Below, in pieces: positions 2,045 through 52,983 of a DNA stretch of 58,577 bases. How positions within the stretch are numbered: the stretch's first letter is position 1; the number at the start of each line of letters is the position of its first letter. Position numbers and translations under genes: made by a program. This DNA is from Nitrospirota bacterium (lineage in GTDB: Bacteria > Nitrospirota > Thermodesulfovibrionia > UBA6902 > DSMQ01): positions 1-58,577 of the forward strand of contig JACRGX010000044.1 of assembly GCA_016212185.1 (NCBI GenBank), written 5' to 3'. The notes under the pieces were generated by a model, which had not been told where the DNA came from, searched no databases, and saw nothing but the letters and a program-made list of their open reading frames with translations.

Positions 2045-2110
2045 TGTCATTCCCGCAAGCGAAGCGCGTCGGGAATCGTTTAGGAAAGATTCCGGACAAG
2101 CCGGAATGAC
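2045..2110. repeat. GTCATTCC-family dispersed palindromic repeat
   Basis: Begins tgtcattcccgcaagcg and ends ccggacaagccggaatgac, so the ends are complementary. Closely related copies lie at 24599-24673, 45885-45954 and 49529-49598. More diverged members are at 18888-18953, 23180-23300, 34554-34614, 40712-40783 and 51507-51551. Most are intergenic; two are inside genes. Confidence 0.85.
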
Positions 2111-2169: not shown

Positions 2170-3459
2170 ATGAAAATTTCCATTTCAACATTGGGATGCA
2201 AGGTAAATCAGGCTGAGAGCGCCTCAATTGAAGGTATACTGAGAGGGCAGGGGCATGAAGTCGTCCAGCCCTTTCAGTACCTAAGCCCGGATGTATGCAT
2301 AATCAACACCTGTACAGTTACTGCAAAGAGTGATTATCAGTCAAGACAGTTGATCAGAAGGGCGGTCAGAACCGGGGCCAAGGTAATTGCCACAGGCTGT
2401 TACGCACAGTTACGACATGATGAGTTGTCCGGGATAGCAGGTGTAAGCCTGATACTTGGAAATTCATTAAAAGAAAAACTGCCTGAATACATTGATAAGT
2501 TGTCAGCAGGTGTAAATACGCCGGCGCTGTCAGATAATTCCACTTATCCGCCGCTTACATTACAACCATATTTTTCCCGCAGGGCGAGGGCCTTTCTCAA
2601 GATACAGGACGGATGTAATTTTTCCTGTTCGTATTGCGCTGTTCCTATGGCAAGGGGAAAAAGCCGGAGTTTAAGCCATGAAGATGTTTTACATTCAGTT
2701 AAGATGCGTGCCGCTGATGGTTTTAAGGAAATAGTTTTGACCGGAGTTCATATTGGAAATTATGGACTGGATTTGCGTCCAAAAATTTCATTAGTGGAAA
2801 TTGTGGATAATATTGTAAAGAAATATTCCTCAGTGCGAATAAGGCTGAGTTCAATTGAGCCTCAGGAATTTAAAAAAGAATTATTATCGCTGATTAATTT
2901 AAAATCAGTCTGTCCCCACATTCATATTCCGCTTCAAAGCGGCTCTGATAATGTGCTGGAACTGATGAATAGAAGATATAGCGCTGTTTTCTTCAAGGAT
3001 CTTGTTAACTGTATTGTTGCAACCTGCCCGCAGATTTCAATTGGTACGGACGTGATTGTAGGCTTTCCCGGAGAAACCGAAAAGAATTTTAAAGATACCA
3101 TTAAAATACTTACCGAGCTGCCGCTGAGTTATATCCATGTTTTTCCGTATTCAAAGAGGAAAGGAACCGCTGCCGAAGCAATGCCCGGACATATTGACAG
3201 CGCAGTTAAGCGCAAGCGGCTGGCAACAGTTATGGAACTTGCTGAAATTAAGAAAAATATATATAAGTCAAAGCACTTAGGCGGGATACTTGATGTAATA
3301 GTTGAAAATAAGTCACAAACATCTGGTTTTTATTCCGGTACATCAGATAATTACCTCAAGGTTTTGATTGAAGGGGACAACCTGACTGTTGGCGAAAGAA
3401 TACAAGTAAAGGCAGTTTCTTTTACAAAGAAAGGGTTGCACACAGTACTGTTTCAATAG
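2170..3459 (+). CDS. mtaB: tRNA t6A37 methylthiotransferase MtaB
   Basis: 429 aa, the usual MtaB length. This radical-SAM enzyme converts t6A37 of ANN-decoding tRNAs to ms2t6A37. The N-terminal methylthiotransferase domain carries the three cysteines of the auxiliary [4Fe-4S] cluster (Cys10 in STLGCKVNQAES, Cys48 in INTCTV, Cys77 in ATGCYAQ). The radical-SAM motif CxxxCxxC is at Cys149/153/156 (CNFSCSYC). The GCKVNQ N-terminus and the IRLSSIEPQE and GTDVIVGFPGE blocks match the MtaB branch rather than MiaB or RimO. A C-terminal TRAM-like region follows (about 360-429). The ribosome site is weak (ggaaaaa), and a hairpin precedes the gene. Confidence 0.95.
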   Translation: MKISISTLGCKVNQAESASIEGILRGQGHEVVQPFQYLSPDVCIINTCTVTAKSDYQSRQLIRRAVRTGAKVIATGCYAQLRHDELSGIAGVSLILGNSLKEKLPEYIDKLSAGVNTPALSDNSTYPPLTLQPYFSRRARAFLKIQDGCNFSCSYCAVPMARGKSRSLSHEDVLHSVKMRAADGFKEIVLTGVHIGNYGLDLRPKISLVEIVDNIVKKYSSVRIRLSSIEPQEFKKELLSLINLKSVCPHIHIPLQSGSDNVLELMNRRYSAVFFKDLVNCIVATCPQISIGTDVIVGFPGETEKNFKDTIKILTELPLSYIHVFPYSKRKGTAAEAMPGHIDSAVKRKRLATVMELAEIKKNIYKSKHLGGILDVIVENKSQTSGFYSGTSDNYLKVLIEGDNLTVGERIQVKAVSFTKKGLHTVLFQ

Positions 3460-3814
3460 CTACACTAATACTCCTAACTTTTTGATTTTTATGATTTTTC
3501 AAACCTGCCTAAAAATTGTGCAATCCTTGAAAGAGCCTTATTGCAAGCCGATTGGAAAGGGGCAGCACCCTTGATAATCACACCTTTTAAACATTAGCCG
3601 TGAATACCTTATGTCTGATAAGATATATTATGTAAAATTAGAGAGTATGAGCTCAGTGTACACGTAATATAAACAATGTCATTCTCCAACTTGATCGGGG
3701 AATCAATAAGTTGTTATAACTACTGAATCCGCCAGTTAAACCGGTGGATGACAAATTGACATGTGCAGGTTTTTAATTTTAATGAAAATTGCTGAAGAAT
3801 AGGAATATTTTGAA
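3460..3814. other. Intergenic, no gene recognised
   Basis: A+T-rich spacer with no convincing frame on either strand. It holds a fragment related to the GTCATTCC family (near 3677-3704, with cattctccaacttgatcggggaatc) and a short imperfect stem around 3726-3748. It separates mtaB from the toxin-antitoxin pair and marks the left edge of an A+T-rich patch. Confidence 0.4.
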
Positions 3815-4174
3815 TTATTGCCTCTTTTTGGCTTTCCACACACTGTGGAACGTGTCATGCATGACAATAGTTAAACCTGACCAGTCACTCTCATTAAATA
3901 AGTTCATTGCCTTAATTACTTTTTGGTGAATTTTCAGCCTATTAGGCTGTTTAAGGCGTACAATCAAGATACCATTGTTTTTTTCATTCCTTTTTTGCAC
4001 AAAACCTTTATCTGTGGAAATCAGAAGCCTTTCATCCTTCTTAACCATTTCCCATATAACATCGTCAGTCATGCCTTCATCTGCTGTACCACGAATGTCT
4101 TTAACTTCATGCCCAATCCTGCGTAATTCTTTAACAGTCATTGCAGGAATGTTTTCATCCACAAAAATTTTCAT
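3815..4174 (-). CDS. DUF5615 PIN-like toxin
   Basis: 119 aa. The N-terminus MKIFVDENIP has the acidic pair typical of PIN-like DUF5615 proteins, followed by a GHEVKDIRG strand and RLLISTDKGF, whose Asp is a likely metal ligand. These proteins are predicted RNases of type II toxin-antitoxin modules. The gene overlaps the upstream DUF433 gene by 4 bp, which is the standard arrangement for this pair and supports translational coupling. Catalytic activity is inferred from the family and is not proven. It sits on the minus strand in an A+T-rich accessory patch. Confidence 0.85.
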   Translation of the reverse strand: MKIFVDENIPAMTVKELRRIGHEVKDIRGTADEGMTDDVIWEMVKKDERLLISTDKGFVQKRNEKNNGILIVRLKQPNRLKIHQKVIKAMNLFNESDWSGLTIVMHDTFHSVWKAKKRQ

Positions 4175-4404
4175 ACAACTACTTCGTCCGGAATGACCTG
4201 ATCTTCTGTCAGCGAAGCAGCATATTCAATACAGGCGAGGATATCTTCATGTTTAAGAGAAGGATATTCCTTAATGAGATCTTCAATAGTATCTCCATTC
4301 GCTAACATATGCAAAATCTGGTGAACAGGGATACGTGTCCCTTTGATACATGCCTGTCCATGACAAATCTGCGGATTAATTGTTATGCGTTCAACCATAA
4401 CCAT
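4171..4404 (-). CDS. DUF433 antitoxin
   Basis: 77 aa. It contains the DUF433 signature GQACIKGTRIPVHQILHML followed by a helix and EDILACIEYAA. DUF433 is a small winged-helix-like DNA-binding domain that pairs with PIN-like toxins, and here the toxin gene overlaps its stop by 4 bp. An A/T-rich promoter region with a ggaggg ribosome site lies upstream at about 4405-4440. As usual for type II modules, the antitoxin comes first and probably represses the operon. Confidence 0.88.
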   Translation of the reverse strand: MVMVERITINPQICHGQACIKGTRIPVHQILHMLANGDTIEDLIKEYPSLKHEDILACIEYAASLTEDQVIPDEVVV

Positions 4405-4794
4405 CCCTCCTCTATTATTTATTGTCTGTAATATATTATATTTTATATAAAAATTTCTACTTTTTCTATGATAATTTTCCCCGCCCTACCCCTTATCATT
4501 AACAAATAGCCTCTTTTAGCCTCTTGTAAATTGCGCATAAATCAGTCACTCAGGCGGGCAGGTTTTAAGCCGGAGTTGTAGGGTTTCCCGTGAAAACAGA
4601 AACTATTTTTCAGCAGTCCCAAGTTTTCACTTTAACTGTTATTTTTGCTTTAGTTATATATTAATAATTCTTATAAAATATATAGTTTTTATAAAAAACC
4701 TTGACAAATCTGGGGGGAGTAGTGTAAGACATATTAGTATAATTCCCTATGTGACAACACTTGGGAAACCTAAAAATTTTTAGAATAACAACAG
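4405..4794. other. A+T-rich intergenic region
   Basis: Divergent spacer between the antitoxin gene and the lipoprotein gene. It has no convincing frame. A TATAAT hexamer at about 4737-4742 is a possible -10 element for the plus-strand gene, but no good -35 lies 16-18 bases before it: the nearest TTGACA is about 31 bases away. There is nothing else I can name. Confidence 0.35.
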
Positions 4795-4841
4795 CCTCAA
4801 AGGTCAAGTAAATTCCATTGGAATTTACTTGACCTTTGAGG
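4795..4841. promoter_or_regulatory. Perfect 23-bp inverted repeat with a 1-base centre
   Basis: Left arm 4795-4817 (cctcaaaggtcaagtaaa ...), centre t at 4818, right arm 4819-4841, with no mismatch. As RNA it would form a very stable hairpin, ending about 6 bases before the ribosome site of the lipoprotein gene at 4864. It is not followed by a T-run, so it is not an ordinary terminator. It may be an operator, an RNA stability element or a mobile-element scar. Confidence 0.75.
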
Positions 4842-4863
4842 ACAGATAAGGAGAGTGGGAATT

Positions 4864-5514
4864 ATGAGAAAGCGCATAGGTATATCAATTACAATTGGGT
4901 TTGCTCTTTTTTGTTTTTCTTGCACACATATGATAGCGACAAGAATGAGTGAAAATTACTGGAAGAAACCGAACACTTCAATCTTGCTTGAGACAAATGA
5001 TATTATAGTTTTCTCTATGACACCAACCGAATTTCAGGTGTCTGGAGGCTCCTGGCATTCTGAAACAAATTCTTATATTTTCTCTGACAGATTTTTTGAG
5101 GTGTTATCTAATCTTGAAAACGTCCCTTCACTTCCTAAGGACTTAAATTTCCAATTTGTGAAAGATATACCATCAGAATGGAAAGAAAAATTGAAACAAG
5201 GGGTGTTTGAAAGAGGTAATGCAACTATATATTATAAAGCTCCTGATAGCAAATTTAAATATCTTGGTTTTGCAGCTTATTCTCAAAAAGAGAAAGAAAA
5301 ACAATTAAAAGTATTAAGGACATTTGATAAAAAAAATTATAAGGTCTTACAAGATTTAGACCCTTCTGGCACACGCCAGATGACACAGGTTGGTGCTTAC
5401 AAAGTAGGAGTAGCATCAATGCTGATAGGAGCCTTTATAGATAATAGTAGAATAGATTTCTTTTGGACAGGCCATGATAAGAACTTTAAGGTAAAAACAT
5501 TTAGTTTAGAGTAA
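4864..5514 (+). CDS. Unknown lipoprotein
   Basis: 216 aa from the ATG at 4864, chosen because aaggagag lies 9 bases upstream; a GTG at 4855 falls too close to that site. The N-terminus is a signal peptide with a lipobox (FCFSC). The remainder is soluble, rich in Lys and aromatic residues, with a hydrophobic strand GAYKVGVASMLIGAFIDNSRIDFFW near the end. I recognise no family. It is preceded by a perfect 47-bp hairpin and lies in an A+T-rich patch with a toxin-antitoxin pair and an FRG-domain gene, so recent acquisition is plausible. Its job is unknown. Confidence 0.65.
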   Translation: MRKRIGISITIGFALFCFSCTHMIATRMSENYWKKPNTSILLETNDIIVFSMTPTEFQVSGGSWHSETNSYIFSDRFFEVLSNLENVPSLPKDLNFQFVKDIPSEWKEKLKQGVFERGNATIYYKAPDSKFKYLGFAAYSQKEKEKQLKVLRTFDKKNYKVLQDLDPSGTRQMTQVGAYKVGVASMLIGAFIDNSRIDFFWTGHDKNFKVKTFSLE

Positions 5515-5987
5515 ATTTTTTTATTGAATGCTGAGCTACAGATGTTTGTTTTGTATGTCATTATTCTTCAGGGTTTATAAATAAAATCTACTAATTTTTA
5601 TATAGCCCGTTTTGTACTTAAAGGTGAAGCAGGATAAATATTGTCTTCGATAGTAAATGATCTTCTTACTGAGAGATGAAGATGGCAGCGGAGAGAGGAA
5701 AATGGATGCAGGTTTTTATTCTTCACTTAAGGAAAATTGTAGAATAAAAAGAGGCAGCAACCTAACAAAACGCTACTTGAACGAGTGCCAAAGGTCGCTT
5801 TTTGGACTGAGGATATTTTCAGTCTGCAAAACGTCTTTATCCTTTCTCATATCTTACGGTGGCACTCGTCAGTCATCAGAGCGTTATTTATATATTTGTT
5901 GACATTGTCATCTAACCGGTCTCAAAGATTGTGACTACAACATATAGGGGCAACAGAAAATTGAAAGAAACAAAGGTGGTGCAACAA
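5515..5987. other. Intergenic region with attC-like imperfect cruciform
   Basis: 473 bases without a convincing gene; an 81-codon frame at 5657-5902 has no ribosome site and no protein-like composition. From about 5764 to 5887 two nested inverted pairs can be seen: aacgct with agcgtt outside, and acgagtgcca with tggcactcgt inside. The left end begins cctaac, which fits the conserved RYYYAAC box of integron attC sites, but the right end gttattt fits its partner box poorly. The structure is visible; its identity as an attC is doubtful. Confidence 0.3.
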
Positions 5988-7208
5988 ATGACAAAAATAA
6001 CAGAGTTAAAAGTTGAGCGTTGGAAAGAAATAAGACATATATTTGAGATGTTCAGTTATAAATGGGTTTTCCGAGGCCAGCGCGAAAGCACATGGCAGTT
6101 AAGCACTCCGTTCAAAAGAATTGTAGATGGTTTTAATTTTGGGAGAAATGGTAATGGCAGGAAAAATCACTTAAAAAAACTAGAACTTGATATTTTAAAA
6201 AATTTTAAGGCACGTGCCCACCATTATCTAAATAATCTTCCAAATGATAATAATTATTTGGAGTGGTTTTCTTTACTGATACACCATGGTGCTCCGAGCA
6301 GGTTTTTAAACTGGACAAGATCACCATACGTAGCAAGTTATTTTGCTCTTGAAGATACTACTAAAGATTCAAAAAAAACGAACGGTGAAATAGACTGGTC
6401 TGCCGATAATAAGAGCTGTGCTGTCTGGGCATTAAATCTGGAATGGTGTGAAAAAGAGGCATTTAAAACTTTAAGAAAGTGGATGAAGAATAAAAATGTC
6501 TTTATTTTTAATCGTCTTAAGGATGTTATTTTTAATAACGATATCCCATTTGTTGTGCCTGTTAAGCCATCACGACTAAATGAAAGAATAACAATTCAAC
6601 AGGGTATTTTATTGTGTGTTGGTAATTCAGAATCTAATATGGAGGACAATTTAAAAGGATATAGCAATATTAAGAATAATATAATAAAAATAATAATTCC
6701 AAAAGCTGTATGGATAGACGGCTTAATGGAACTGAACAGAATGAATATCAATAGAGCCACTTTATTCCCTGGAATTGATGGTTTTGCAGAATCTTTAGGC
6801 AAGACATCTATCCCCACATATTGGTATGAACAACATTCACATATTCCAAAGAACCAGCAGGATGGTTTATCACGATTTTTAGGATGTAACCGTACATTTT
6901 ATATTACCACACCAAATGTCTCGGGTATGTTACATGATATGACAAAGCCTTTTAATGATAGAGACATAAATATCGAATCTATAATACAAACTCAGTTGTC
7001 TCATTCACAGCAATGGGTTTTTGATGTACAATTGAAGAAAAAATATAATAATTCTAAAGCCATTAAGCTCATTAAATTTGAATTAGATCCAATTGCATGC
7101 AAAGAAGAAAATATAAGTTCTAAATTATGTGGTAAATACAGATGCAAGGAAGCGTTTTGCAAAGAAAAAATTTTTGAAGGGGTAGAAAACAGAAACAGGA
7201 AAACTTAA
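5988..7208 (+). CDS. FRG-domain protein with C-terminal ACT-like domain
   Basis: 406 aa from the ATG at 5988, chosen because aaggtggt lies 8 bases upstream; a GTG at 5931 in the same frame has no such site. FRG domain, about residues 20-285: FRGQ at 28-31, HHGAPSRFLNWTRSP at 99-113, SYFALED, and the closing TLFPGIDGFAESLG. Residues about 302-372 read as an ACT domain (TFYITTPNVSGMLHDMTKPF, then NDRDINIESI), the usual ligand-binding beta-alpha fold. A short Cys-containing tail follows. FRG domains have an unknown, possibly ADP-ribosyltransferase-like, activity and recur in accessory and defence loci. The ACT fusion is my reading of the sequence and has not been confirmed by a search. Base composition is more A+T-rich than in the housekeeping genes here. 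Confidence 0.75.
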   Translation: MTKITELKVERWKEIRHIFEMFSYKWVFRGQRESTWQLSTPFKRIVDGFNFGRNGNGRKNHLKKLELDILKNFKARAHHYLNNLPNDNNYLEWFSLLIHHGAPSRFLNWTRSPYVASYFALEDTTKDSKKTNGEIDWSADNKSCAVWALNLEWCEKEAFKTLRKWMKNKNVFIFNRLKDVIFNNDIPFVVPVKPSRLNERITIQQGILLCVGNSESNMEDNLKGYSNIKNNIIKIIIPKAVWIDGLMELNRMNINRATLFPGIDGFAESLGKTSIPTYWYEQHSHIPKNQQDGLSRFLGCNRTFYITTPNVSGMLHDMTKPFNDRDINIESIIQTQLSHSQQWVFDVQLKKKYNNSKAIKLIKFELDPIACKEENISSKLCGKYRCKEAFCKEKIFEGVENRNRKT

Positions 7209-7376
7209 CAATTGATGGGATTTCCATCCGCCTGCTTGTAACAGTGCAGTGAAATTGAACCACGGTACACTTTTTTGGCAGGTGATTAGTTTCAGTAGTG
7301 CAAATCAGTTTTTTTGCTGTCTGATGAGCTTCAGTGGTTCTATTCGCTGACTTCTACGTTCGCCTGAAAATGAAAG

Positions 7377-7520
7377 ATGAAACACCTTCTTCACATCTTT
7401 TGTATGTGGGTGGAAAAAGTCTTTGGCGTATCAGCATGGAAGGTTCTCGTTGGGATAATAGTTTTGATTGTTCTTATTGGGATTTGGGACAGTCTGTCGA
7501 GTAATCGGCAACGCAAATAA
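7377..7520 (+). CDS. Possible 47-aa single-span membrane peptide
   Basis: Short frame from ATG 7377 to TAA 7518-7520. The N-terminal part is amphipathic (MKHLLHIFCMWVEKVF). A clean hydrophobic span follows at about residues 22-37 (KVLVGIIVLIVLIGIWDS), then a basic tail (SSNRQRK), which suggests one membrane helix. An internal ATG at residue 10 is an alternative start. The ribosome site is weak (gaaag). Composition and topology look real for a small membrane protein, but chance cannot be excluded. It follows the FRG-ACT gene on the same strand by 168 bp. Confidence 0.3.
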   Translation: MKHLLHIFCMWVEKVFGVSAWKVLVGIIVLIVLIGIWDSLSSNRQRK

Positions 7521-7735
7521 AAAAATCCTGAAAGACTGGAAATTCGATTTGTGGTTCTGATCAATGCAACGCGGAGGACCGCACGCGTTAACCTGGATGT
7601 TCTCCATTCAATTTCTCAGATTATTGACTCGTAGGTGGAATAAACAATGTAACTCGTCTTTTTTATACCCTCCCCCTACCCCTTCATTTTTCGCTTGACA
7701 AGCAATAACATATAAGTGGGTTTGGGGGTTTTCCC
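7521..7735. other. Spacer at right edge of the A+T-rich patch
   Basis: No convincing gene. Together with 7209-7376 it makes up the 527-base interval after the FRG-ACT gene, of which only the short frame at 7377-7520 looks protein-like. The last 60 bases hold C-rich words (accctccccctacccc) related to the GC-rich repeat family. Confidence 0.35.
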
Positions 7736-9292
7736 TTACCCCTTTTGCAGTTTCTCGTAAATCCGGGCATTTTCAATGGCAATGCCGCAGACTTCTGCAA
7801 GAGAGGCGGAAAAAGTAATGTCTTCATCTGAAAACTGCCTTGGTGTGTCAGTCAGCAGCCTTAAAACGCCTATAACGCTTCCCTTTGCAGTAATAGGAAG
7901 GGTAAGAATACTTTTTATCCCCTCTTTGCGGGCCTCTTTCTGGTAATGGACCCTCGGGTCAGTGGCTACGTCATAAATGGCTACTGGCTTGGTCTGGAGG
8001 GCTTCTTTTATGTTTTCCTCAAAATCAACAGGGCCTCTTTTCAGGTATTTTTCACTAAGCCCTGAAGCGGCTACGAGCTCCAGCTTCTTCCCTGTGTCGT
8101 CCAAAAGCCTGATGGTAGCTGCCTTGAGCTTCATCACCTCTGGGAGCATTCTCACTATCATATCAAGCACTTCGCTAAATTTTAAGGATGAACTGACAGC
8201 CTTAGTAACCTGTTCAAATACCCGCAGATATTCCCTTGCGCGCGAAACTGTAGTCTCAAACTTCCTCGCATTTATAATGCCTATGGCAGCCTGCTCGGCA
8301 ATCGCAGCCATAAACTTTAAATCTTCATCACTGTATTTCACTGGTTCGGCAGTGTACATCCTTAAAACCCCGATTACTTCTTTTTTGAATTTTACGGGTA
8401 TTGATAATATGCTTCGTATGCCTTCTGACTCTGCCTCTTCACGGTATCTTGCATTGGCGTCTGATGTAATGTCGTAGATGGAAACCGCCTTGCCTGATAA
8501 GGCGTCGTCTATGCTTTTATCATAGGCTACGGGGCCTTTATTAATATATCCGGGGCTGAGGCCGTGGCTGGCGGCGACTTCAAGCTTCTGCGTCTCCTTG
8601 TTAAGAAGCCTTAGCATGCTGGCCTTAACATTCATTACCTTAACGGCATTTGTCACAATCAGATTCAACACCTCATCAAGTGAGAGGCTTGAACTGATGG
8701 CCTTGCAGATATTTTGATAGCTTTCAAGATAAACCTTTTTTTCAAAAATTTTGTCTGCACAGTCAGGACACATGCCGTGCGTAAAAACGCCAAACCCTTC
8801 ATCGGTTAAACGCTTCTCAATCTGTTCCCATAAATTTTCATCAATCCTGATTTTTTTGCACCAGGCGCATATCGGTATCAGCCTGTTTTTTCTCTCCCTC
8901 CGCATATTGGTTTCCACTTCAGCAAATACCCTGTCATTATTTCTAAGGACGGAAACTGCGCCGACTGTTTTACTTTTTCTGAAGACAGGACTTGATTTCT
9001 CCTCTATGCGTTTTCTTTCATTATTTTTATCTTTAAGAAAAAGGTCTTTGACAACCGTCTTCATTGACTGAAGGCAGAGATTTAAAGGATATTCATAGGG
9101 TTGAAGCTTTATTCCGGAGTCATCCTCATAAGATAACAGCGCCTCGCAGTTTTTTCCAACAGCCTCTTCAAAGGAGATGCCTGTCAGTATTTCAGCGCTC
9201 CTGTTCCAATATGTAATCTTCCTTTCAGTATTTGTGCAATAAACTGCGTCAGGGATATTGTCAAGGATATCAAGGTATATATTATTGAACAT
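7736..9292 (-). CDS. PAS - Cys4 motif - GAF - GAF sensor protein without output domain
   Basis: 518 aa. Residues about 5-120 form a PAS domain (DNIPDAVYCTNTERKITYWNR). Residues about 140-185 hold two Cys pairs, CAWC and CPDC, a small metal-binding-like module often found in PAS/GAF kinases. Two GAF domains follow, about 190-345 and 355-512, with similar sequences (SLSLDEVLNLIV / SLKFSEVLDMIV; EGIRSILSIPV / EGIKSILTLPI), so the second is probably an internal duplication. No kinase, GGDEF, HD-GYP or DNA-binding domain follows, so it must signal through a partner. No membrane span is visible; it is likely cytoplasmic. Confidence 0.8.
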   Translation of the reverse strand: MFNNIYLDILDNIPDAVYCTNTERKITYWNRSAEILTGISFEEAVGKNCEALLSYEDDSGIKLQPYEYPLNLCLQSMKTVVKDLFLKDKNNERKRIEEKSSPVFRKSKTVGAVSVLRNNDRVFAEVETNMRRERKNRLIPICAWCKKIRIDENLWEQIEKRLTDEGFGVFTHGMCPDCADKIFEKKVYLESYQNICKAISSSLSLDEVLNLIVTNAVKVMNVKASMLRLLNKETQKLEVAASHGLSPGYINKGPVAYDKSIDDALSGKAVSIYDITSDANARYREEAESEGIRSILSIPVKFKKEVIGVLRMYTAEPVKYSDEDLKFMAAIAEQAAIGIINARKFETTVSRAREYLRVFEQVTKAVSSSLKFSEVLDMIVRMLPEVMKLKAATIRLLDDTGKKLELVAASGLSEKYLKRGPVDFEENIKEALQTKPVAIYDVATDPRVHYQKEARKEGIKSILTLPITAKGSVIGVLRLLTDTPRQFSDEDITFSASLAEVCGIAIENARIYEKLQKG

Positions 9293-52767: not shown

Positions 52768-52920
52768 TTAAAAATCCAGCGGACTCTTCATCTCTTTTAC
52801 AGTTTTGCTCGGCATGCAGTGAGTATAAATCATAGTAGTTCTGACGTCACTGTGACCGAGAAGCGTCTGGATTGTCCGTATGTCGTAATTTGCCTGAAGC
52901 AAGCAGAAGGAACGGATTGG
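52768..52920 (-). pseudogene. C-terminal fragment of a tyrosine recombinase
   Basis: The minus strand reads [32 protein letters not shown] and [10 protein letters not shown], then a TAA stop at 52768. This holds the LLGH...TTMIYTH block with the catalytic His and Tyr region of phage- and integron-type integrases. The family form is usually HSFATHLLxxxYDIRT; here two residues (ATH to C) are lost, and no catalytic core remains upstream. A dead remnant, about 50 codons long. The remaining bases of the gap 52669-52983 hold nothing I can name. Confidence 0.88.
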
Positions 52921-52983
52921 GGTTAGGTCTTGTTTCTTGCATTTTTAAAGTTTATATAAAGACACTTCCCGCATTTTTGCAAC

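Follow-up and report, generated by a model that had tools for sequence, protein, structure and literature searches.

The open reading frame at 5988-7208 of the window, by which is meant the whole 58,577-nucleotide stretch of DNA analysed here, is genuine, and its 406-aa product is an unusual variant within a known candidate-defence family, in which an FRG domain is followed by a tail that resembles the first half of an ACT domain. The product is probably a bacterial defence-type protein. FRG proteins form a large candidate-defence group that has barely been studied, and a naturally occurring variant whose tail looks regulatory and in which an invariant residue is altered would help to locate the residues and contacts that control FRG proteins. 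A singleton with a half-recognisable ACT domain is a lead and falls short of a system; the protein is best regarded as an interesting oddity rather than as a proven new switchable enzyme.

The reading that we tentatively prefer is a single-gene accessory protein of the FRG/PDC-S15 candidate-defence group, which would have entered with a small integron-like insertion and would have acquired its ACT-derived C-terminal tail in this lineage. The FRG domain would bind NAD+ through an ADP-ribosyltransferase-superfamily fold and, if active, would consume NAD+ or ADP-ribosylate a target, and the tail would pair two chains and adjust that activity. Because of Asn108, NAD+ turnover by the FRG core is in question. 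The loss of Asp108 suggests weakened or changed catalysis, in which case the tail may serve binding or sensing rather than the gating of a fast enzyme. The observations behind this reading are the FRG homology, the ACT-like residues 303-335, the insertion, the attC-like site and Asn108 (Table 1).

Table 1. Features of the FRG locus, with positions in the window
Feature	Position	Strand	Basis or remark
Insertion, 4067 bp	3649..7715		Missing from same-genus G357 (L222) and same-family G395 (L223)
DUF5615 / PIN-like ORF, probable toxin	3815..4174	-	E 9.9e-20 (Pfam)
DUF433 ORF, probable antitoxin	4171..4404	-	E 3.4e-26 (Pfam)
219-aa ORF, lipoprotein-like by eye, without family	4855..5514	+	Within the insertion
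Integron attC-like site, ACCTAAC ... ACGAGTGCCA / TGGCACTCGT ... GCGTTA	5760..5886	+	DNA fold z -4.5
FRG + ACT-like ORF, 406 aa	5988..7208	+	ATG 5988, stop 7206-7208
PF08867 FRG core, residues 25-127	6060..6368	+	Pfam; whole FRG unit is residues 1 to ~275
Codon 108, AAC (Asn); Asp in every homologue row examined	6309..6311	+	Alignment
ACT-like first half, residues 303-335 (TFYITTPNVSGMLHDMTKPFNDRDINIESIIQT)	6894..6992	+	Gly-x-Leu loop and Asn-Ile kept
Remaining tail, residues 336-406	6993..7205	+	Without significant match of its own

The reading frame and its FRG domain

Directly upstream of the start codon lies a ribosome-binding-like sequence, AAAGGTGG. Among the forward frames, codon usage favours frame 0 across most of the ORF as far as about 7130, after which the signal weakens. 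At the three codon positions the FRG part has GC values of 0.37/0.33/0.28 and the tail 0.36/0.32/0.26, with other values in the flanks; since the tail shares the composition of the FRG part, it looks coding. An origin of the tail by frameshift or readthrough is not favoured, as the other frames hold no ACT continuation and the codon-position GC of the tail is that of the FRG part. Promoter matches were no better than in shuffled sequence, terminators were not found, and an Rfam scan of 3300-8000 gave no match.

The FRG domain named in an earlier note on this DNA, made from the sequence alone, is borne out by Pfam, where PF08867 scores 72.9 bits on the 406-aa protein against a cut-off of 25 (E 4.3e-20), and the PADLOC PDC-S15 profiles match residues 3-269 with an E of 1.7e-42. 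NCBIfam gave no match on the whole protein, nor did a sequence search of solved chains. An AlphaFold model of the FRG unit built with 75 relatives has pLDDT above 90 across most of residues 1-280. Foldseek found no significant solved match to this model (best E 0.41). With VIA, nearly all of the top rows are ADP-ribosylating proteins, with Z of at most 4.9 (first row: Z 4.9, rmsd 3.8, 121 aligned), values that, being below 8, may reflect nothing beyond a common arrangement. PMC9503650 assigns Frg to the ART superfamily, proposes it as a possible NADase and antiviral effector, and credits Frg as an antiviral effector to a 2020 paper. The VIA rows fit this placement, short of proof.

PF08867/PDC-S15 proteins align with residues 1-275 over the whole unit, at up to about 36-38% identity, and are encoded by standalone genes, as here. 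They usually stop shortly past the domain, with a median of 3 residues beyond the FRG envelope in the 205 ORFs that reach the domain end (from a set of 211 ORFs in 205 loci, partly redundant, with some genomes present twice). At least 50 residues follow the domain in 4 of these 205 C-terminally complete ORFs, in agreement with the earlier remark that the protein is unusually long for its family. It differs from its relatives in the 131-aa tail beyond the FRG unit, in Asn for Asp at position 108 and in Ile for Gln at position 98. One viral-contig FRG protein (L137, 2788-4035) is extended at its C terminus by about 130 aa that look SET-like by eye.

All 184 homologue rows of the alignment have Asp at position 108 and either Gln or Arg at position 98; they are a partly redundant sample of 80 genome rows (the best 80 of 326 relatives), 80 viral rows (the best 80 of 168) and 24 rows from the phylum. 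The Asp belongs to the TRLLDW motif, is invariant in these samples and is absent from the 406-aa protein. We know of no published criterion for FRG membership that concerns this residue. R29, the Arg of the F-R-G strand, is kept (Arg in 174 of the 175 homologue rows with a letter there), as are Gln204 (Gln in 173 of 174) and family position S112. The protein differs at seven of the 31 positions that 90% of relatives conserve, where the relatives themselves average 1.08; this contrast is inflated, as the columns were picked without the 406-aa protein, and one relative (L082) also differs at seven. With an otherwise invariant Asp missing from the FRG core, catalysis itself is in doubt.

The ACT-like tail and its distribution

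The C-terminal ACT-like domain described in the earlier note stands for its first half, residues 303-335 being ACT-like beyond chance when profile scores are compared with shuffles, whereas the Pfam cut-off is missed and residues 336-406 stay at the shuffle level. PF01842 scores 20.6 bits on the whole protein (E 3.9e-4) and 22.7 bits on the tail alone (E 8.5e-5), both below the curated cut-off of 27, so the tail is called ACT-like only. The match pairs residues 306-335 with positions 5-34 of the 66-position profile. Six ACT domains from the same genome, selected by Pfam and independently of the tail, yield a profile that gives 18.5 bits on the tail against a maximum of 14.8 in 20,000 shuffles. 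A larger profile of eleven domains reaches 31.1 bits on the tail where shuffles go no higher than 11.8, a partly circular result, since five of the eleven were found via the tail, and the own-genome six make the fair profile. With the eleven-domain profile, residues 336-406 alone reach 2.3 bits, which 335 of 5000 shuffles equalled.

In both AlphaFold models the tail has a mean pLDDT below 50, with nearly all of it below 60, and they speak neither for nor against a complete beta-alpha-beta-beta-alpha-beta ACT fold in residues 300-372. The single-sequence model of the tail (mean pLDDT 47) has a helix at 311-322 and strands at 327-336, 343-353 and 356-366; the first of these elements come in the order expected at the beginning of an ACT domain, at a confidence too low to count. 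The tail shares with PF01842 domains, including those of proteins that we take from their sequences to be prephenate dehydratase, GlnD and tandem-ACT regulators, the first strand, the Gly-x-Leu loop, the helix, the Asn-Ile pair and the start of the second strand. Unlike them, it has an unrecognisable second half, and its partner is FRG in place of a metabolic enzyme.

Pfam places ACT at ten sites in the genome, the tail among them. A recent copy of one of the genome's own ACT genes was considered as a source of the tail and rejected, as the tail used as query matches itself only. At E <=0.1 the tail finds matches in 19 of 230 genomes of the class, its own included, the best other E being 0.004. 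Four of the nine tail-matching loci L199-L207 encode ACT proteins (L199, L202, L203 and L204) and five do not. Viral contigs scanned with ACT queries and with the tail gave no match.

An ACT-like tail is found in none of the 205 other C-terminally complete FRG ORFs, and when the six-domain profile was run over all FRG-bearing ORFs, the 406-aa protein scored 16.0 bits and the runner-up 5.5. In the window's phylum, 24 of 395 genomes, counting that of the window, have FRG relatives at E <=1e-10, as do 13 of 385 and 6 of 374 genomes of the phyla to which two relatives belong; with a limit of E <=1e-6 they occur in 5 of 101 near relatives, again counting the genome of the window. Outside that genome, no match in these searches extends beyond query residue 276, and residue 292 is the farthest reach in whole-ORF blastp of the loci from the window's phylum. 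Nine plasmid records match, none beyond residue 292, and phages gave one match. Among 84,980 species genomes 326 relatives were found, and among viral contigs 168, in scans that register only sequences matching either of two short motifs, and in collections from which the genome of the window and its very near neighbours may be absent; the best 80 of the 326 and the best 80 of the 168 all lack an ACT tail. When 75 of the best 80 genome relatives were scanned with Pfam together with the 406-aa protein (L090, L091, L096, L099 and L101 having been dropped as fragments or odd ORFs), ACT appeared in one of 76, the 406-aa protein itself.

Within the collections searched, the FRG-ACT-like fusion looks like a singleton. 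With no second genome carrying it, there is no evidence of selection for the fusion. The literature searched, mostly without subscription papers, yielded no paper on an FRG-ACT fusion or on what an FRG protein itself does. The earlier note had counted its idea as refuted if the fusion were confined to this DNA as an assembly join. As far as searched the fusion is indeed seen here alone, but there is no sign of a join, and the continuity of codon-position GC and the collinear flanks of the insertion in a sister genome argue against one inside the gene.

Alternative readings of the fusion

Decay after a fusion event accounts for the same facts nearly as well as the accessory protein with an acquired tail. 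A deletion would have joined an FRG gene to a portion of an ACT protein, and the gene would be drifting, with D108N and the eroded second half of ACT as its marks and an unselected product. Such decay is suggested by a fusion unique to this genome as far as searched, the lost invariant Asp and the seven of 31 altered conserved positions, the unrecognisable second half of ACT and the weaker coding signal beyond about 7130. Nevertheless, 406 codons run without a stop and with consistent codon-position composition, a ribosome-binding-like sequence precedes them, and R29, S112 and Q204 are retained; decay appears somewhat unlikely.

The ligand-gated FRG effector proposed in the earlier note has fared less well. 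A metabolite or amino acid at the ACT interface would turn on, or turn off, an FRG enzyme that is active in consuming NAD+. Amino-acid binding is common among ACT domains, and the ACT-like loop Gly313-x-Leu315 and the Asn-Ile motif are kept in the tail, a resemblance that makes gating possible. Against it, half of the ACT domain alone is recognisable, the fold of the tail is modelled with low confidence, Asp108 is lost, the fusion looks like a singleton among the relatives searched, and a solved relative was not found by sequence. Gating of this kind is doubtful, and no more likely than an enzyme that has been altered or is decaying.

An equally questionable reading is that of a catalytically dead FRG domain acting as a sensor of NAD+ or ADP-ribose, with the tail as an oligomerisation module. 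The retention of Arg29, Ser112 and Gln204 while Asp108 has become Asn would be consistent with a sensor, and inactive members of another NAD+ domain class, TIR-DrHyd-SLOG, are described as sensors in PMC9503650. However, the catalytic role of Asp108 is presumed, and the insertion is without an identified partner effector.

The insertion and its integron traces

The gene was described earlier as A+T-rich and accessory, and both descriptions hold, as it lies in an insertion with 34.9% GC, against 42.7% for the window, that is missing from a genome of the same genus. The alignment with that genome (G357) runs at about 90% identity up to window position 3648 and resumes at 7716 (3655 and 3799 of L222). 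Besides the FRG gene, the insertion holds the family-less 219-aa ORF and the DUF433 and DUF5615/PIN-like pair at 3815-4404, the nearby pair of the earlier note, which we likewise take to be toxin-antitoxin. At 4795-4841, just 5' of the 219-aa ORF, two 23-nt arms separated by 1 nt form a perfect inverted repeat, possibly an operator or hairpin. A 47-base repeat is present at 3722-3768 of L222, where the window carries the insertion, and also at window 2064-2110, upstream of an MtaB-like gene. No shared partner emerged among the 143 genes that lie closest to FRG genes, all within 1 kb, in the genome loci; Pfam most often gave LpxB, in 4 of the 143, with Fic in 3, AAA in 3 and type I specificity in 2, and PADLOC gave mad2 in 3.

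The attC-like hairpin, with ten-base arms, follows the 219-aa ORF, precedes the FRG gene and was assigned by what we take to be the attC consensus. It is the sole site in the window that fits the attC-like pattern, and 100 Markov windows held no attC-like site with arms of at least ten bases; a stricter attC spacing rule misses it. In a genome where integron-integrase copies were found only in truncated form, it is possibly an isolated attC or a CALIN, an attC cluster without an integrase. Past the FRG stop (after 7208) no attC-like site was found, and the fold z of 7196-7345 is -0.8. An integron cassette carries its attC downstream of the gene, so the FRG gene adjoins an attC-like site while its own cassette status is unproven.

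With integron cassettes and CALIN the locus shares the attC-like site, a small A+T-rich insertion, a toxin-antitoxin-like pair and integrase remnants in the genome. It differs in having a single attC-like site, upstream of the FRG gene, with none recognisable past the stop, and an intact integron integrase was not found. PMC12444791 reports that anti-phage genes occur in integron cassettes. A mobile integron-associated FRG effector with a recruited amino-acid-binding ACT domain, whose NAD+-directed activity, re-tuned by the change at Asp108, would answer the metabolic state of an infected cell, seems unlikely.

For an intact recombinase of 437 aa on contig 42 the best fit is the XerA-like NF040815, and a truncated integron integrase of 135 aa on contig 69 matches TIGR02249 with 167.9 bits at positions 182-313. 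Remnants of the C-terminal half of the integron integrase (TIGR02249) are scattered, in the window at 52771-52944 on the reverse strand (a truncated copy of 58 aa), at 7867-8271 of L254 and at the ends of contigs C94 and C26 of the same genome. Some of these remnants end contigs, as if a repeat had interrupted the assembly.
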